From contig CANQVH010000044.1 of NCBI GenBank assembly GCA_947627245.1, positions 1-32,053 of the forward strand: 32,053 bases of DNA, written 5' to 3'. Positions 72 to 29,059 of the stretch are shown piece after piece. The notes under the pieces were generated by a model that was not told the origin of the DNA, did not search any database, and was given only the letters and a program-made list of their open reading frames with translations. The translations under genes were made by a program, and so were the position numbers. Each line of letters starts with the position of its first letter. The first letter of the stretch is position 1. The stretch comes from an uncultured Lachnospiraceae bacterium (GTDB lineage Bacteria > Bacillota > Clostridia > Lachnospirales > Lachnospiraceae).

Positions 72-168
72 ACTTCATTTTGCGGCGGTCCTTTTTCGTG
101 TCCTTCATTATGGAAACAAAAGATAATTCTGCATAAGAACGGTCGGTTTTGGTTATAGAAAATAGTGC

Positions 169-197
169 TTGCATTTTGAAAAGCGCGGATATATAAT
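169..197 (+). promoter_or_regulatory. copA promoter
   Basis: TTGCAT (169-174), a 17-base spacer, and TATAAT (192-197). The copper operator starts 1 base after the -10, so a bound repressor would block RNA polymerase. Confidence 0.8.
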
Positions 198-257: not shown

Positions 258-2864
258 ATGGAACAATATACCGTGACCGGGATGAGCTGCGCGGCGTGCA
301 GCGCCAGAGTCGAGAAGGCGGTCCGGAAGGTGGACGGCGTCACGGACTGCTCCGTGAGTCTTTTGACAAATTCCATGGGCGTGGAGGGAACGGCCTCCCC
401 GGCGGCGATCATAAAGGCGGTCGAGGATGCGGGCTACGGCGCGTCGCCGAAAGGCAGGCGGGAAGCGTCCGGCGCATCGGATGCGGCTGCCTCGTCAGCG
501 CCGGACTATGACAGCGCGCTGGCCGACACAGAGACGCCGAAAATGAAGCGAAGGCTGATCGCTTCGCTGTGCCTGTTGATTCCGCTGATGTATGTCTCGA
601 TGGGGCATATGATGTGGGGTTGGCCGCTGCCGCGCTTCTTCGACGGGAACCATGTCGCGGTAGGGTTGGTGCAGCTTCTGCTCACCGCCGCGGTCATGAT
701 CATCAACCAGAAGTTTTTTGTGAACGGACTGAAAGGTGTCCTGCACGGCGCGCCGAACATGGATACGCTCGTCGCGCTCGGAGCCGGGGCGTCCTTCGGC
801 TACAGCGTCTACGCGCTGTTTGCGATGACCGGCGCGCAGGCGGGCGGCGACCATGCGGCCGTTATGAGCTATATGCATGAATTTTATTTCGAGTCGGCGG
901 CGATGATCCTGACGTTGATCACGGTAGGGAAGATGCTCGAGGCACGTTCCAAGGGGAAGACGACCGACGCGCTCAAGGGCCTTATGAAGCTCGCTCCGAA
1001 GACTGCCACGGTGCTGCGGGACGGAGTCGAGACGGAGGTCGGCATCGCTGAGGTGCGCATCGGAGACCGCTTTGTGGTAAGGCCGGGTGAGAATATCCCT
1101 GTGGACGGCGTCGTCGTCGAGGGAAGCAGCGCGGTCAATGAGTCCGCCCTGACCGGCGAGAGCATCCCGGTCGACAAGGCGGCGGGGGACAGCGTATCGG
1201 CGGCCACCGTGAACCAGTCGGGCTTTCTGACCTGCGAGGCGACGCGGGTCGGCGAGGATACGACGCTCGCGCAGATCATCCGGATGGTCAGCGACGCGGC
1301 GGCGACGAAAGCGCCGATCGCCAAGATCGCGGACCGCGTGTCGGGCGTGTTCGTGCCGACGGTCATTGCGATCGCCATTGTGACGATCGTGGTATGGCTG
1401 ATTGTGGGACAGAGCGTCGGCTTCGCGCTCGCGAGGGGCATTTCGGTGCTGGTGATCAGTTGTCCGTGCGCGCTCGGGCTGGCTACGCCGGTCGCGATCA
1501 TGGTGGGTAACGGCATGGGCGCGAAGCACGGGATCCTGTTCAAGACGGCAGTGTCTCTGGAAGAGACGGGCAAGGTGGAGATCGTCGCGCTCGACAAGAC
1601 CGGGACGATCACGAGCGGGGAGCCGCGCGTCACGGATATTTGCCCGGCGAACGGCGTGTGCGCAGACGGCACAGGCGCGGACGGTGTAAATACAGACAGT
1701 GCGGGTGCAGTGGCGAACGGTGCGGCTTCGGCCGAGGAGCGTCTGCTTGGGGCCGCGTTTGCGCTGGAGCGCAGAAGCGAACACCCGCTGGCCAAGGCGG
1801 TGCTCGCGCTGGCGCAGGAGCGGAAAGTTGCGGTGCGTGAGACCGATGATTTTCAGGCGCTTCCGGGCAACGGTCTGAGCGGGACCTGCGAGGGGCACAG
1901 CCTTGCGGGCGGCAATCTCGCGTTCATCCGCACAAAGGCGGAGATCTCGAAAGCTATGGAGGAAAAGGCTGCCGCGCTGGCCTCCGAAGGGAAGACGCCG
2001 CTGTTCTTCAGCGAGGACGGGAGGCTTCTGGGCATTATCGCGGTGGCCGACGTCGTCAAGGAGGACAGTCCGCAGGCGGTGAAGGAGCTTCAGAATATGG
2101 GGATTCGCGTCGTCATGCTGACCGGCGATAACGAGCGGACCGCGAAGGCGATCGGCGAAGTCTCCGGTGTGGACGAGGTGATTGCCGGAGTGCTCCCGGA
2201 CGGTAAGGAGAGCGTGATCCGCGGACTGCAGAAGCAGGGAAAAGCCGCGATGGTCGGCGACGGAATCAACGATGCGCCGGCGCTCGTGCGGGCGGACATC
2301 GGCGTCGCGATCGGCGCCGGGACCGACGTCGCGATCGATGCGGCGGACGTGGTGCTGATGAAGAGCAGACTGCCGGATGTCGCGGCTGCGATCCGCCTGA
2401 GCCGGGCGACGCTGCGCAACATTCACGAAAACCTGTTCTGGGCATTTTTTTACAATGTGATCGGAATTCCGCTGGCGGCGGGCGTCTGGTATCCGCTGCT
2501 CGGCTGGAAGCTGAACCCGATGTTCGGCGCGGCCGCGATGAGCCTGTCGAGCTTTTGTGTAGTAACGAACGCGCTGCGTTTGAATCTGTTCCCGATGTAC
2601 GATACATCGCGGGACAGAAAGATAAAAAAGAGAAAGCGAAAGGAGCAAAAAGAGATGGAAAAGACAATGGAGATCAAGGGGATGATGTGCGGACACTGCG
2701 AGGCGCGCGTGAAGAAGGCGCTTGAGGCGCTGCCGGAAGTGACTGAGGCGGTCGTGAGCCACGAGAACGGCACGGCGGTCGTGAAGCTGAGCGCGGCAGT
2801 CGCGGACGACGTACTCAAGAAGGCGGTTACGGATCAGGATTATGAGGTGACCGCGATTCGGTGA
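258..2864 (+). CDS. copA: Copper-exporting P1B-type ATPase with fused C-terminal CopZ-like domain
   Basis: This 868-residue membrane ATPase pumps Cu(I) out of the cytoplasm. The N-terminal HMA domain has the metal site GMSCAAC (Cys11, Cys14). The transmembrane metal site CPC is at 402-404. TGES marks the actuator domain, DKTGT begins at the phosphorylated Asp446, SEHP lies in the nucleotide domain, and GDGIND is near 667. The nucleotide domain carries a low-complexity Gly/Ala/Asp insertion of about 30 residues after DKTGT. A basic linker (about 788-803) leads to a second HMA domain with CGHC (811-814), similar in size and sequence to the free chaperone CopZ. I chose the ATG at 258 because GGAGGT (245-250) is 7 bases upstream; a GTG at 249 is in frame but poorly placed. 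Transcription should be released by copper through the CsoR-type operator. Confidence 0.95.
2641..2657 (+). promoter_or_regulatory. Internal ribosome-binding site for a CopZ-sized product
   Basis: AGGAG (2641-2645) lies 9 bases before an in-frame ATG (2655) inside copA. Starting there would give a 69-residue free HMA protein ending at 2864, the usual size of CopZ. This may be a working second start or the relic of a copA-copZ operon that fused when the copA stop codon was lost. Confidence 0.5.
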
Positions 2865-2933
2865 CTGCGCTTTGGCGGCGGGCGTGACCCGAGACGCCGA
2901 ATAGAACGCGAAAGCGAAATTTGACAAAAAAAG

Positions 2934-2996
2934 GAGCGGACGGCGCCCGAAAGGATAGACGCATACTTCCTGACGGGACAGTCCGCTCTGTTTTTC
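2934..2996 (+). terminator. Probable copA terminator
   Basis: GAGCGGAC (2934-2941) pairs perfectly with GTCCGCTC (2981-2988), followed by TGTTTTT. The loop is long (39 bases), which is unusual. Confidence 0.55.
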
Positions 2997-3062
2997 TGCC
3001 GTTTTTCCGAAGGATTTTCATTTCTTAGAAAAATATTAAGAAAACTAAACGGAAAGCATTCA

Positions 3063-3090
3063 TTGTTTTTAATTGCACACATGTTATAAT
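3063..3090 (+). promoter_or_regulatory. Promoter of the surface-protein gene
   Basis: TTGTTT (3063-3068), a 16-base spacer, and TATAAT (3085-3090). The 5' leader is about 100 bases long. Confidence 0.6.
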
Positions 3091-3194
3091 CACGATACAG
3101 AAGATAAAGCGTTGCCGATCCCGAAGCGGACGGCGGCGATACAATCCGTATTCAGAGACATAGAAATCATGCTAAAGGAGAGGAAGGAGCAGCT

Positions 3195-6101
3195 ATGAAA
3201 AAGACGAGAAGAAGGATTTTGGGGATTATGATGGCGTGCCTGATGATCTGTCTTCCTGCGATGCAGGCGCTTGCGCAGACGTATGACGCGGGCGTGATGG
3301 ATCCCGCGCCGATCCTGTTCCCGGGCGACGAGCTGACGGGCATTATGACGCCGGTCACGCTGGACGGGGAGCCGGTCGCGCTGGGCGAGGGAGAGACATC
3401 ATGGACAAATGACAGCGAGGGCAAAGTGTACAGCGCCGCGGCGGCGGAGGACGGTTCCGTAGCGCTCACGCTGGCAGGATACGAGCTGGACGTGACAGGC
3501 GGGACATCCGTTGCGGCTGATAAAGCGGCAGGGCCTCTCGGCGGACATTATGTTCCGGCGGAGGACGAGGTCGTGGACGAGAGCGCGCCGAAGACGGACC
3601 GCGCGTATTATCCGGCGTATACGATCGTGAAGATCAAGGCCGACGAGCCGGAAGAGGGCATGGAGTTTGAAAAGTGGACGGTCGATTCGGAGGATGTCAT
3701 TCTTGAGGATGAGCTGAACAGCGAGACGACTGTCACATTGCCGGAGAAGAAGGTTTCGATCACGGCAAATTACCGCCCGATACAGACGGAGGCAGATCCG
3801 GGCGCTGGTGGTGAGGTGACCGATCCGAATGCAGAAGGCGCACCGGGTGAAGTGATTGATCCGAATGCCGCAGATGCGCCGGGCGAAGTGACCGATCCGA
3901 ATGCCGCAGGCGAACCGGATGGAAACATAGATATGGGACTTGAAGGTACACCGATTGAGATAACCGATCCGAACGGTGCAGGCGTACCGGATGAAAACGT
4001 GGATCCGGGACTTGAGGGTACACCGGTTGACGGTGTCGATCCGAACGGCGCAGGCGCACCGGATGGAAATGTAGATCCGGGACTTGAGGGCGCACCGGTT
4101 GACGGCGTTGATCCGAACGGCGCAGGCGCACCGGATGAAAACGTAGATCCGGGGCTTGAGGGTACACCGATTGATGAGATCGATCTGGGCGGCGGAAACG
4201 CGACGGACACCATGATGCCGGGCGATCCTTCGGCGATCATTGTCACGACGGGAGACACGTACAATTCGGAAGGCGTGTATACCTTGGATGTGTACTACGG
4301 CACGGTGGGCAACGAGGGGATTGCCGGCACGGAAATCGCAAACGGGACAGGAATGAGCTACAGCATTTCCGCAGGGACCGAGGTATCTGTTTCGGCGAAC
4401 GACTACACGATTAACGGCTTCAATTTCTCCTACTGGGACAATGAATCCGGAAATGTTGCTTTGACTCCGGCGGAAAATACCGAGAGCGTGAGCTTTACGA
4501 TGCCGGAAGGAGACGTCGTGATTACCGCGAAGTACGCAGACGCGGAGGGCAATCCGGTGGGAACTCCGCAGTACCAGCCGAATCCGGTTGATGAGGCGGA
4601 CCCGACACCGGCTCCGACTATAGATCCGACACCGGGACCGATCACAGGTTCGGAAAATTCGATCGCGCCTATTGATGAGACTCCGACTCCCCCCGCTACG
4701 CACAGTGTGACGGTAAATTGCGGAACGGCGAAGGGACCGGACGGAACTGCTTCGACGACATTTGCAACGGGTACTCAGGTCACGATTACCGCCGCGGACA
4801 GGACGGCGGAAAATCTCAGCTTCAATGGATGGACAGTGGATTCGGGAAATACGACACTGGCAAATGCAGCTTTAACAGAGACGACTTTCACGATGCCGGA
4901 TGCGGATGTGATGATTACCGCCAATTATGCACAGATCCAGACGGAACCGACGCCGGCTCCGGCTTACGGCGTGACGGTTTCCGGTGGCGTCATCACAGCC
5001 ACGGGGATCGCGAGCGGTTCTTTTGAGGCGGGCGCGACCGTGCAGCTTCAGGCGAATGCTCCGGCGGCCGGGATGAAGTTCGTCAAATGGTCTGCGAAGA
5101 CGGAAGCGGGCGAGGCCATTGCGGACTCTGCATTCTCGGCGGTAGGCGAGGCGACAACAAACTTTGTGGTTCCGGCATCTGCGGTAACGGTGACTGCCGA
5201 GTTTGCAAAGATTGAGTATACGATCACCGTAAACGATGGCACTGCGAATTACGCGAAGGCAGGAAGCGACACGAAGGTCAGGATCACTGCGGACGAAGCG
5301 CCGGAGGGGATGGAGTTTGATTACTGGAAGGTAGACAGCGGAAACGTGACCCTCAGAAACGCTTCCAAGGCGACGACGTCCTTCCTTATGCCGACTGCAG
5401 ACGTAGAGGTGTCCGCATACTATCGGATGAAAGAATATCATGTGACTGTACAGAACGGTCATGCAGATGAAGATACCTACTATATGGGACAGGAGGTTAC
5501 GATATACTCCAACTACCCGTCAAGCGGCAGAGAGTTCGACCAGTGGCAGAAGGTCAGCGGCAAGGTGACGTTCGGCGATGCAACCAGATGGAAGACGACG
5601 TTTACGATGCCGGCAAGCGACGTGACGGTGAGCGCGGCCTACAAGGACGGTCCGGCTCCGAGCAGCAATCAGGTACTGGATCTCGTAGCAGGCGGAGAGT
5701 ACATTACGGACAATACGATCAAATTCACGGCGGCAGGCGCGGGAATGGACAATTCCAATCCGAACCCGGGTGATTACCGCTATCGTCCGACCGGCTATCA
5801 GATCGGGAACGTGACCGGCTCGTGGCAGTCCGCGCCGTATACGACGTCCATGTCGATCAAGGCGCGCGGCGATTACACGCTGAAGGTGAACTACAGCAAG
5901 GATGTGTTTGATGGGACCAACTGGGTTCCGGACGGGACCACAGATACCAGATCCGTGACTTTCCGGGTGCTGACTCCGGCAGAAGCGGTGAAGACCGGCG
6001 ATGAGACGCCGATCGTGATGATGGTAATTCTGGCCGGTGCATCCTGCCTGCTGTTCCTGCTCCTGCTGAGCGTATTCATTCGCAGAAGAAGCAGAAACTG
6101 A
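3195..6101 (+). CDS. Large secreted repeat protein with C-terminal membrane anchor
   Basis: 968 residues. A signal peptide (1-27, cleaved after ALA) is followed by a run of about ten 12-residue acidic repeats (roughly 200-331). Six divergent beta-rich repeats of the InlB B-repeat/Listeria-Bacteroides type lie at roughly 135-197, 350-450, 505-580, 590-680, 680-750 and 755-825. These typically read Y-x-V-x-V-x-x-G, then G-x-x-V-x-I-x-A, then F-x-x-W and T-x-F-x-M-P. The C-terminus has VKTGD (932-936), a hydrophobic span and RRRSRN, which resembles a sorting signal but lacks the proline of LPXTG or PPKTG. The SD GGAAGGAG (3182-3189) sits 5 bases before the ATG. The gene is alone in its transcription unit. 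It is probably a wall- or membrane-anchored adhesin or stalk protein; the ligand is unknown. Confidence 0.85.
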   Translation: MKKTRRRILGIMMACLMICLPAMQALAQTYDAGVMDPAPILFPGDELTGIMTPVTLDGEPVALGEGETSWTNDSEGKVYSAAAAEDGSVALTLAGYELDVTGGTSVAADKAAGPLGGHYVPAEDEVVDESAPKTDRAYYPAYTIVKIKADEPEEGMEFEKWTVDSEDVILEDELNSETTVTLPEKKVSITANYRPIQTEADPGAGGEVTDPNAEGAPGEVIDPNAADAPGEVTDPNAAGEPDGNIDMGLEGTPIEITDPNGAGVPDENVDPGLEGTPVDGVDPNGAGAPDGNVDPGLEGAPVDGVDPNGAGAPDENVDPGLEGTPIDEIDLGGGNATDTMMPGDPSAIIVTTGDTYNSEGVYTLDVYYGTVGNEGIAGTEIANGTGMSYSISAGTEVSVSANDYTINGFNFSYWDNESGNVALTPAENTESVSFTMPEGDVVITAKYADAEGNPVGTPQYQPNPVDEADPTPAPTIDPTPGPITGSENSIAPIDETPTPPATHSVTVNCGTAKGPDGTASTTFATGTQVTITAADRTAENLSFNGWTVDSGNTTLANAALTETTFTMPDADVMITANYAQIQTEPTPAPAYGVTVSGGVITATGIASGSFEAGATVQLQANAPAAGMKFVKWSAKTEAGEAIADSAFSAVGEATTNFVVPASAVTVTAEFAKIEYTITVNDGTANYAKAGSDTKVRITADEAPEGMEFDYWKVDSGNVTLRNASKATTSFLMPTADVEVSAYYRMKEYHVTVQNGHADEDTYYMGQEVTIYSNYPSSGREFDQWQKVSGKVTFGDATRWKTTFTMPASDVTVSAAYKDGPAPSSNQVLDLVAGGEYITDNTIKFTAAGAGMDNSNPNPGDYRYRPTGYQIGNVTGSWQSAPYTTSMSIKARGDYTLKVNYSKDVFDGTNWVPDGTTDTRSVTFRVLTPAEAVKTGDETPIVMMVILAGASCLLFLLLLSVFIRRRSRN
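3793..4188 (+). repeat. About ten tandem 36-base in-frame repeats
   Basis: The units encode 12-residue variants alternating between DPNGAGAPDENV and DPGLEGTPVDGV. The last six units form a 24-residue (72-base) higher-order repeat. Early units (DPNAEGAPGEVI) are the most divergent, so the array appears to have grown from its 3' half. Confidence 0.9.
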
Positions 6102-6351: not shown

Positions 6352-6780
6352 ATGGACAATAGAAGTTTATCACACACCAAATGGAAATGCCAGTACCACA
6401 TAGTTTTTATTCCAAAATACCGCAAGAAGGTATTGTACGGAAAGGTTCGGGAGGATGTGCGAGAGATAATAAGTACGCTATGCAAGTACAAAAATGTGGA
6501 CATCATAGCAGGGGCAGTGTGTATCGATCATGTACATTTAAGCGTAGCAATACCGCCGAAGATAAGCATATCGAATTTCATGGGGTATTTGAAGGGGAAA
6601 AGTACGTTAATGGTTTACGACAGACATCCTGAACTACAGAGTAAATGGGACAAAGCATTTTGGGCAAGGGGATATTACGTAGAGACAATCGGTAATATAA
6701 CAGACGAAGCAGTACAGAAGTATATAAAAGAGCAGGCAGAGGAATCGAGAAAAGAAGATTCCAGAAGTACCGCTTTATAA
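6352..6780 (+). CDS. tnpA: IS200/IS605-family Y1 transposase
   Basis: 142 residues, a normal length for the family. The HUH metal-binding motif is D-H-V-H (His60, His62), and the catalytic tyrosine is Tyr124 in the YIKEQ context near the C-terminus. The enzyme cuts and joins single-stranded DNA at the subterminal hairpins using a 5'-phosphotyrosine intermediate. All key residues are present, so it should be active if translated. The start is fixed by the SD GGAGGAGG ending 5 bases upstream of the ATG. This is the only protein of the element. Confidence 0.95.
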   Translation: MDNRSLSHTKWKCQYHIVFIPKYRKKVLYGKVREDVREIISTLCKYKNVDIIAGAVCIDHVHLSVAIPPKISISNFMGYLKGKSTLMVYDRHPELQSKWDKAFWARGYYVETIGNITDEAVQKYIKEQAEESRKEDSRSTAL

Positions 6781-25333: not shown

Positions 25334-25405
25334 TAGTCCCTAGGGGAATCGAACCCCTGTTTCCGCCGTGAGAGGGCGGCGTCTTAACCGCTTGACCAAG
25401 GAACC
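25334..25405 (-). tRNA. tRNA-Glu (anticodon CTC)
   Basis: The cloverleaf is complete: acceptor GGTTCCT/AGGGACT with a G1-U72 wobble pair, D arm with GGTCAAGCGGTTAAGAC, anticodon stem CCGCC/GGCGG around loop CTCTCAC, and T arm AGGGG-TTCGATT-CCCCT. The discriminator base is A and CCA is not encoded. It is a single tRNA gene on the strand opposite its neighbours. Confidence 0.95.
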
Positions 25406-28622: not shown

Positions 28623-28652
28623 TATCCTATGCGTGTGGGGCGGAATCTGTGT
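28623..28652 (-). promoter_or_regulatory. Sigma-K-like promoter of the second SpoIID-like gene
   Basis: On the minus strand: ACAC (28652-28649), 17 bases, CATAGGATA (28631-28623), matching mAC-16/17-CATAnnnTA. It lies 27 bases before the start codon. Confidence 0.55.
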
Positions 28653-28889
28653 ATAGTGAACAACCGGACGCCGCAAGAGCCGATGTGCCTGCCCACCGCA
28701 AACAAGTTGCTCTCCTTGATTCGCTCCGCCGCCTATTGACAACTGTCTCCGCAAACTCGCTACGCTCAAACATGCTCCGACAGTTGTCGCTATGCTCGCG
28801 AATCTGCGTCAAACTGCCTATCGTTTGCTTGCGGGCAGGCAGCATCCGACTCTTTTGCGGCTGTTCCGTTCGCAGACTACGCACAGCCC
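28637..28889. repeat. Large imperfect inverted repeat 1 with nested perfect hairpin
   Basis: The arm at 28670-28703 pairs with 28823-28861, including GCCGCAA/TTGCGGC, GCCTGCCC/GGGCAGGC and GCAAAC/GTTTGC. Weaker pairing continues outward to about 28637 and 28889. Inside it a perfect 10-base stem GACAACTGTC (28738-28747) / GACAGTTGTC (28779-28788) closes a 31-base loop, and CTGCCT/AGGCAG (28814-28819/28837-28842) offers an alternative hairpin. No convincing coding sequence lies here. This and the next entry fill the whole 28653-29059 gap. Confidence 0.85.
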
Positions 28890-29038
28890 GAACAGGGAAT
28901 TGCGATGCCAAGGCAAACCGTTGAGGGCCGCCGGTACTTAGCGAATGCAAAAGCATGAGCTTAGTACCGCTGCGTGACCGATCCGAGCGGAAGCGCGTTT
29001 GCATTGGCATCGACAATTCCTGTCGGGCGTCCGTATAT
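28876..29038. repeat. Large imperfect inverted repeat 2 with nested hairpin
   Basis: The arm at 28886-28916 pairs with 28997-29028 (GCCCG, ACAGG, AATTG, CGATGCCAA and GCAAAC blocks and their complements). Pairing continues weakly to 28876 and 29038. Inside, 28932-28969 folds into CGGTACT/AGTACCG, AGC/GCT, tandem G-A mismatches and ATGC/GCAT around an AAAA loop. Its left end abuts inverted repeat 1. It starts 22 bases past the beta-mannosidase stop codon. Confidence 0.88.
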
Positions 29039-29059
29039 CGTATTGAACTAAACACGAAA

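Follow-up and report, generated by a model that had tools for sequence, protein, structure and literature searches.

A probable MITE-like repeat with two covarying hairpin modules in a Lachnospiraceae genome

Organisation of the element and its copies

The window, meaning the whole 32,053-nucleotide stretch of Lachnospiraceae DNA analysed here, carries a probable MITE-like element of 413 bp (28646..29058, plus strand) between two minus-strand genes, one GH2 beta-mannosidase-like and one with peptidoglycan-binding and SpoIID-like domains. The bounds are set by the ends common to homologous copies and correct those of a sequence-only reading of this DNA, which had placed the block at 28637-29040. 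Imperfect terminal inverted repeats of the TTCGTGTWTAGT type surround two structured modules. The left repeat occupies 28646..28672 (plus strand, TCTGTGTATAGTGAACAACCGGACGCC) and the right repeat 29028..29058 (minus strand, read there as TTCGTGTTTAGTTCAATACGATATACGGACG). The right end lies one base short of the mannosidase stop codon (TAA, 29062-29060, minus strand), and the putative promoter proposed earlier falls inside or beside the right terminal repeat (29028-29058). A 155-aa ORF running through the block has no Pfam match, and a coding block was thus rejected, in agreement with the earlier judgement that reading frames here are unconvincing. Rfam searches were negative, both for the element at gathering scores and for the block at E up to 5, and a known riboswitch, T-box or named large RNA was rejected on this basis; none of these had been recognised in the letters either. 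Elsewhere, the window encodes a tRNA (25334-25405, minus strand), its sole Rfam match at gathering score, and an intact-looking IS200-type Y1 transposase (6352-6780, plus strand; PF01797).

The block folds at -175.4 kcal/mol on the plus strand (z -6.29) and at -192.4 kcal/mol on the minus strand (z -7.39), with 0/100 shuffles as good in either case. Both of the large imperfect hairpins described from the letters were found, and the folding energy exceeds chance whichever strand is considered.

A 461-base query around the block yielded 28 matches in the bacterium's own genome (3.84 Mb, 151 contigs). Seven copies are full-length, including that of the window, and the other six are 90-95% identical to the window copy. 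At three or fewer mismatches, the left end occurs at 18 genome places and the inverted right end at 7, and the reversed pattern gives 0 for each. The copies are modular, with partial, one-hairpin and nearly bare forms beside the full-length ones. Hairpin 1 stands alone in L011 and L013, differing material separates the two hairpins in L010 and L012, L021 and L024 comprise hardly more than both ends, and L014 carries a chain of further modules. A site downstream of a cyclophilin gene is occupied twice, by both hairpins in the own genome (L003) and by hairpin 2 only in genome G069 (L154).

A second dispersed repeat (GGGCGACTGCCCGCGA...GCGATAACYCCGG) takes the place of the usual left end in L013 (about 1400-1500, contig C56) and L024 (about 1380-1480, contig C60), both of the own genome. 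L014 has an end similar to this repeat directly after a TatD-like reading frame. On contig C32, two ends of the window's type (type D, see below) stand nearly back to back (TTCGTGTATAGCTCAATACGATACACGAA) as an almost bare element of ~30 bp (L104). Six further type D end matches in this genome appeared chance-like, with the exception of this bare pair, and no transposase partner was seen near type D end matches in the own genome.

Element ends frequently coincide with stop codons. Among the 14 copies of the own genome with locatable ends, 12 have an end at the stop of an ORF of at least 840 nt, counting stops from 6 bases before to 11 bases inside the element; ends were located by a loose motif and then chosen by hand from that list. 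Random flank positions gave 60/8400 such cases per direction. In 11/14 copies (L001-L006, L009, L010, L011, L012, L020) a protein family supports the ORF as a real gene. The genes ending at copies include alanine racemase, cyclophilin, histidyl-tRNA-synthetase-like, GalT, HflX-like GTPase and mannosidase genes. Of the other three copies, L008 ends at an ORF for which Pfam gives no match, and L007 and L013 lack a qualifying stop. Several copies provide the gene's stop codon themselves: a TAG within the terminal repeat serves as the stop at 7/14 qualifying ends, including the unsupported L008 end. The flush position could reflect either targeting or survival. In L005, the ORF that stops at the copy (1913-3403, minus strand) matches an aminotransferase and the C-terminal end of YfhO, and is perhaps a fused or overlapping frame.

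Fold and distribution of the two hairpins

Hairpin 1 with its outer arms (28665..28874, plus strand) is homologous in other copies. Covariation and model matches define its conserved core (28697..28834, plus strand; model R3). The inner hairpin (28738..28788, plus strand), which shows compensatory changes in helix 6, has the perfect 10-base stem that the sequence-only reading had noticed (GACAACTGTC/GACAGTTGTC, 28738-28747 / 28779-28788). Fourteen of the 38 pairs show compensatory changes across 14 copies, and the covariation of 0.271 compares with 0.099 in shuffled alignments (sd 0.012), a value that 0/500 shuffles reach. Of 295 genomes of the order, 4 are positive with model R3, for which genus copies alone were used: the own genome, two others from the same family and one from a different family. 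Seven distant copies of hairpin 1 sit on long self-complementary arms that are seemingly unrelated to those of the window. In L055, a GA-cis RNA match (115-197, minus strand; 39.1 bits) and a tRNA lie close to a hairpin-1 relative.

Hairpin 2 is the family-wide module. Including stem P1 it spans 28884..29032 (plus strand; model R1), as delimited by the genus alignment and covariance model matches, and its core of P2/P3 arm, internal loops and GNRA hairpin spans 28909..29006 (plus strand; model R2), as delimited by covariation and the family survey. The consensus consists of the variable stem P1, a three-way junction, the long arm P2/P3 (ACGYCGGYACUUAG ... CUUAGUACCGCURCGU) and a small 3'-side hairpin, AGC-GNRA-GCG. 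In the window copy, the fold and covarying pairs place the terminal stem-loop ATGC-AAAA-GCAT at 28945..28956 (plus strand) with GA flanking it on both sides, as first read, and alignment columns place the small hairpin AGC-GGAA-GCG with its GNRA loop at 28986..28995 (plus strand).

Compensatory changes occur in 18 of the 31 consensus pairs across 29 genus copies. In a wider alignment of 56 sequences, 88.3% of paired cells are filled by pairs against 75.3% after shuffling, and the covariation is 0.348 against 0.131 (sd 0.007; 0/500 shuffles reach it). Sliding of the pairing partners abolishes this covariation, and the number of further pair types shows no excess (46 vs 46.2 in shuffles). A U.U mismatch in the P2/P3 arm is present in 54/56 sequences, and one pair within CGYCGG/CURCG is C-G in 36/56 and U-A in 20/56. 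This alignment (A5, the set of model R2) was drawn from 78 measured copies; 57 references remained after weak arm scores and near-identical cores were dropped, and the 56 rows result from adding the window copy and leaving out L231 and L239. In alignments A4 and A5 the letters fixed by the core motif are invariant by construction, since the copies were found with that motif. For the genus, copies were instead collected through DNA similarity and with models, independently of the motif, and they too keep the GNRA loop (GGAA, GAAA, GAGA, GGGA, GCGA, GTGA). Alignment A1 retains two rows that are partly off-module or cut (L058:1227-1374 and L016). A covariation check had been proposed with the sequence-only reading, and compensatory changes proved strong in both hairpins.

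Counts of G.U against A.C are 36 vs 4 in the genus set (pairs picked by RNAalifold, hand count) and 40 vs 54 in the family set (hand-set pairs), and these two sets give no decision on the strand of the folded molecule.

By DNA similarity the block is found in 10/60 genomes, all of the own genus, and the R1 model finds hairpin 2 in 26/47 genus genomes, a count that includes the own genome; the largest number in a single genome is 25 matches. A scan of genome contigs with the core motif, which prescribed a GRRA loop and the core's 3' half and left the 5' partners and arms free, identified at least 118 stretches. The 80 motif loci listed are mostly labelled Lachnospiraceae, Clostridiales, Eisenbergiella, Mediterraneibacter, Blautia, Roseburia and Acetatifactor, with single MAGs labelled Selenomonadaceae and Mogibacterium. 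Across the order, a survey with model R2 (strict filters, 13 candidates scored per genome) was positive in 30/295 genomes, all within the 48 sampled genomes of the own family, and in 0/247 outside it. Hairpin 2 is limited to one family within the sampled order. With at most 150 candidates scored per genome, R2 matches number at least 134 in the cultured gut bacterium Eisenbergiella tayi, at least 93 in a Blautia MAG, and 92, 60, 53, 27, 9 and 9 in six further genomes, the high counts being lower bounds. The core motif occurs 0 times in viral contigs, where the flanking mannosidase has no match either, and single queries of the window block against phage sequences and of an E. tayi copy against plasmid sequences gave no match.

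Module matches fall at contig ends in G028, G008, G022 and G076, as if the repeats break assemblies. Inverted pairs of module copies a few hundred bases apart occur in L164, L186, L199, L210, L212, L231 and L237; REP dimers form such inverted pairs.

Arms, ends and target sites

The conserved core, with its three-way junction and GNRA hairpin, is surrounded by arms that are self-complementary and mostly unlike between copies. Their median length in 78 measured copies is 30.5 nt and the maximum is 125. In the 17 E. tayi copies whose arms measure 60 bp or more, mismatches amount to 20% in the 10 bp nearest the tip, 9% in the next 10 and 0-6% further out, and those at the neck are mostly a recurring bulged A and a 2-nt internal loop. 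Between the E. tayi copies listed (exact-core-motif copies only), arms beyond the neck are unrelated or about 70-88% alike. Low mismatch within copies combined with divergence between them indicates that paired arms changed together while the copies drifted. The simplest reading of this pattern would be copying or conversion between the arms of one copy, which would keep them alike in place of selection on each pair. This idea is weakened by the loci outside E. tayi, where mismatches are not concentrated at the neck: in successive 10-bp bins they amount to 14, 8, 12, 20, 18, 8 and 4% at 20 further loci whose arms measure 45 bp or more, and to 11, 1, 9, 19 and 20% in the first five bins of 11 Blautia copies. 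Runs of at least four C within 15 bases of the palindrome occur on the right side in 15/82 cases and on the left side in 0/82.

Some copies are flanked by target duplications. Of 81 palindromes, 4 lie between direct repeats of 9 bp or longer, compared with 0.1 expected from re-paired flanks. In two further genomes, exact repeats of at least 8 bp flank 2/9 and 2/14 fully flanked copies, all with the exact core motif, where 0.0 are expected; L496, which is the same copy as L175, is counted in both surveys. The duplication is missing in most copies (77/81, and 7/9 and 12/14 in the two further genomes).

Copies were sorted by four end types. Those with the exact core motif number 22 in E. tayi (30 stretches), 11 in Blautia (10 stretches), 20 in G076 (20 stretches; 11 of these copies are truncated where a contig or stretch ends) and 14 in G075 (20 stretches). 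Type A ends (GGGTGCAGATAAA) have 9 bp duplications in two copies of a sister genome of E. tayi (G354) and none in three others. Among 11 copies with type B ends (GTWACWGTTCA), the duplication is 8/8 bp in L363, L469 and L480 and 7/8 in L479 and L482. Type C ends (CAGGACAAACGCA) have 10 bp duplications in 2/7 distinct copies. Type D ends, the window's TTCGTG type (TTCGTGTWTAGT), show no target duplication by eye. Copies fitting none of the four motifs number 17/22, 10/11, 62/65, 3/9 and 7/14 in five sets. A 78-bp palindrome in G354 (L416, 4202-4280) has type A ends and no tip, apparently through internal deletion, and is flanked by ATTCTCTAT and ATTCTCCAT.

The sister comparison covered the 5/30 E. 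tayi stretches with both flanks inside 400 kb of sister sequence, and one of them gives an exact empty site. When the flanks of L363 are joined with the duplication counted once, they match G354 over 490/490 bases at 91%, and the sister sequence is uninterrupted with a single CCTCTCCGG. Two more relatives likewise match the joined flanks across 1-490, at 75% and 74% (522 and 506 bases). The 300-bp element is missing at this site in all of these matching genomes. For L344, L352 and L365 the element is likewise missing in the sister, with junctions that are not clean. The sister's copy at the L356 site is a different one, flanked by a separate 9-bp duplication (GCAAGTGCC), and the idea of an insertion common to both sisters was therefore dropped. 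The sister copy L419 has a 9-bp duplication as well (GTCAATTCT), and those in L408 and near base 83,394 have none.

No autonomous partner was seen among the end pairs in the part of the relatives' genomes that was covered. Three end pairs of the 1.3-1.7 kb class were considered and set aside: L217 encloses an ORF that is peptidase-like by eye, and L200 and L399 each have one poor end.

Interpretation and comparison with known systems

We conclude that the block probably represents a MITE-like, non-autonomous mobile element in which TTCGTGTWTAGT-type repeats bracket one or more hairpin modules, two of them in the window copy. It combines terminal inverted repeats, a length of 413 bp, an ORF without a Pfam match and 28 genome matches. 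The sequence-only reading had offered a large structured RNA, a non-autonomous mobile palindromic element or a dispersed repeat. Many dispersed copies were found in the own genome and in relatives, which supports the mobile-repeat reading, so that the second and third options stand together, and the compensatory changes bear out the structural part of the proposal. Recurrence and compensatory changes are both present, and the element matches neither an Rfam nor a coding family. The duplications and the exact empty site come from relatives in which this module sits between other terminal repeats. As no duplication was seen by eye at type D ends, the mobility of its subfamily, which we consider probable, rests on dispersal, shared ends and analogy with these relatives. 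A transposase supplied in trans would move the elements.

The same tip occurs in at least three end types with differing duplication lengths, in addition to the window's type D. This points either to unrelated MITE-like elements that share an apical module or to one lineage with fast-changing ends. We tentatively suggest the former, in which a conserved module of three-way junction, GNRA hairpin and invariant internal loop caps long palindromes and may be carried by several unrelated mobile elements. The latter, with types A-D as one family that changes arms and ends very fast, is a somewhat doubtful yet realistic possibility: E. tayi arms differ by about 12-30% or more under nearly the same tips, and the ends of G076 copies and some E. 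tayi copies are alike (GTAACAGTTCA, GTTACTGTTCA), but the duplication length varies with end type (8, 9 and 10 bp, in the few copies of 3 exact plus 2 near, 2 and 2).

It is improbable that the block is mainly a structured regulatory or trans-acting RNA, such as a 3' UTR element, terminator or small RNA, with dispersal as a by-product of duplication. Such an RNA would account for the strong covariation, the conserved GNRA hairpin, U.U mismatch and junction, and for the copies of the own genome that adjoin stop codons. However, neighbouring genes do not recur, the largest cluster among 152 neighbour proteins being 7, and of the 64 copies with both neighbours called, 40 lie between co-directional, 12 between convergent and 12 between divergent genes. 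The target duplications and the empty site in relatives, and a folding strand left undecided by G.U against A.C, also count against it. Of the features expected of the large structured RNA proposed earlier, the covarying fold was found and a fixed gene context was not.

Movement of a REP/REPIN-like element by a Y1 (RAYT/IS200-type) transposase is very unlikely, since, despite intergenic palindromes at high copy number and the Y1 gene elsewhere in the window (6352-6780), Y1 genes show no association with the module across 47 genus genomes (13/26 module-positive vs 12/21 module-negative, hand count) and the duplications of 8-10 bp are not expected from Y1 single-strand transposition.

If a MITE-like palindrome capped by a shared module is the right description, the fold itself would be the selected part, since it is conserved family-wide while arms and ends turn over. 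The conserved tip may act as a folded single strand, either as RNA in read-through transcripts or as single-stranded DNA, to which a conserved factor present in these bacteria would respond by recognition of the fold. We speculate that the cap is recognised by a family-wide factor of the host or of the element, for example so that long palindromes escape hairpin nucleases or get transposed, or else that it is an independent mobile unit targeting hairpin apices. Evolution would then conserve the centre of a transposable palindrome and not its ends, which is unusual and testable. Such a repeat would likewise account for a group of large hairpins between genes at which assemblies break and which would confuse structured-RNA screens.

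No description of this repeat family was found in the literature covered, most subscription papers and preprints being outside its scope. Several known systems share features with it. Correia elements of Neisseria, which are likewise small, palindromic and located near genes, have inverted repeats that start with TATAGTG, and the left end of the window's element contains this string too; we mention this as a resemblance, not as a homology assignment. Type B ends, which start GTAAC or GTTAC and have 8-bp duplications, resemble those expected of an IS66-derived MITE. In IS66, inverted repeats start GTAAGCG and direct repeats are 8 bp (PMC11946415). Type B ends are mostly GTAAC/GTTAC and not GTAAGCG, no IS66 gene bearing them was seen in the sequence covered, and the window's element has type D ends.

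REPs and REPINs, including CGTC-tagged REPs, are likewise high-copy intergenic palindromes with many inverted pairs and are probably non-autonomous mobile DNA (PMC3733652; PMC3116915). REPs have a length of 20-40 bp, and GTAG REPs an accompanying Y1 transposase (PMC3733652). REPs are thus much smaller than the element here, which also counts against a Y1-moved REP, and the Y1 association is lacking here. An assignment to CGTC-tagged REPs was rejected, CGTC standing at the stem end in only 6/37 short-arm and 1/46 long-arm copies and thus not being general.

The nearest described system known in organisation is the BOX element of Streptococcus pneumoniae. BOX elements are modular small interspersed repeats (boxA, variable boxB, boxC) whose inverted-repeat ends pair in a long stem-loop, with target duplications, ~100 copies and no transposase inside (PMC3049150). 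Compared by description only, the two have in common modular repeats, pairing inverted-repeat ends, target duplications (here in a minority of relatives' copies), about a hundred copies and the lack of an internal transposase. They differ in sequence and hosts, and the repeat family described here has arms reaching 125 bp and a three-way-junction core with a GNRA hairpin that is conserved across a bacterial family inside several end types.
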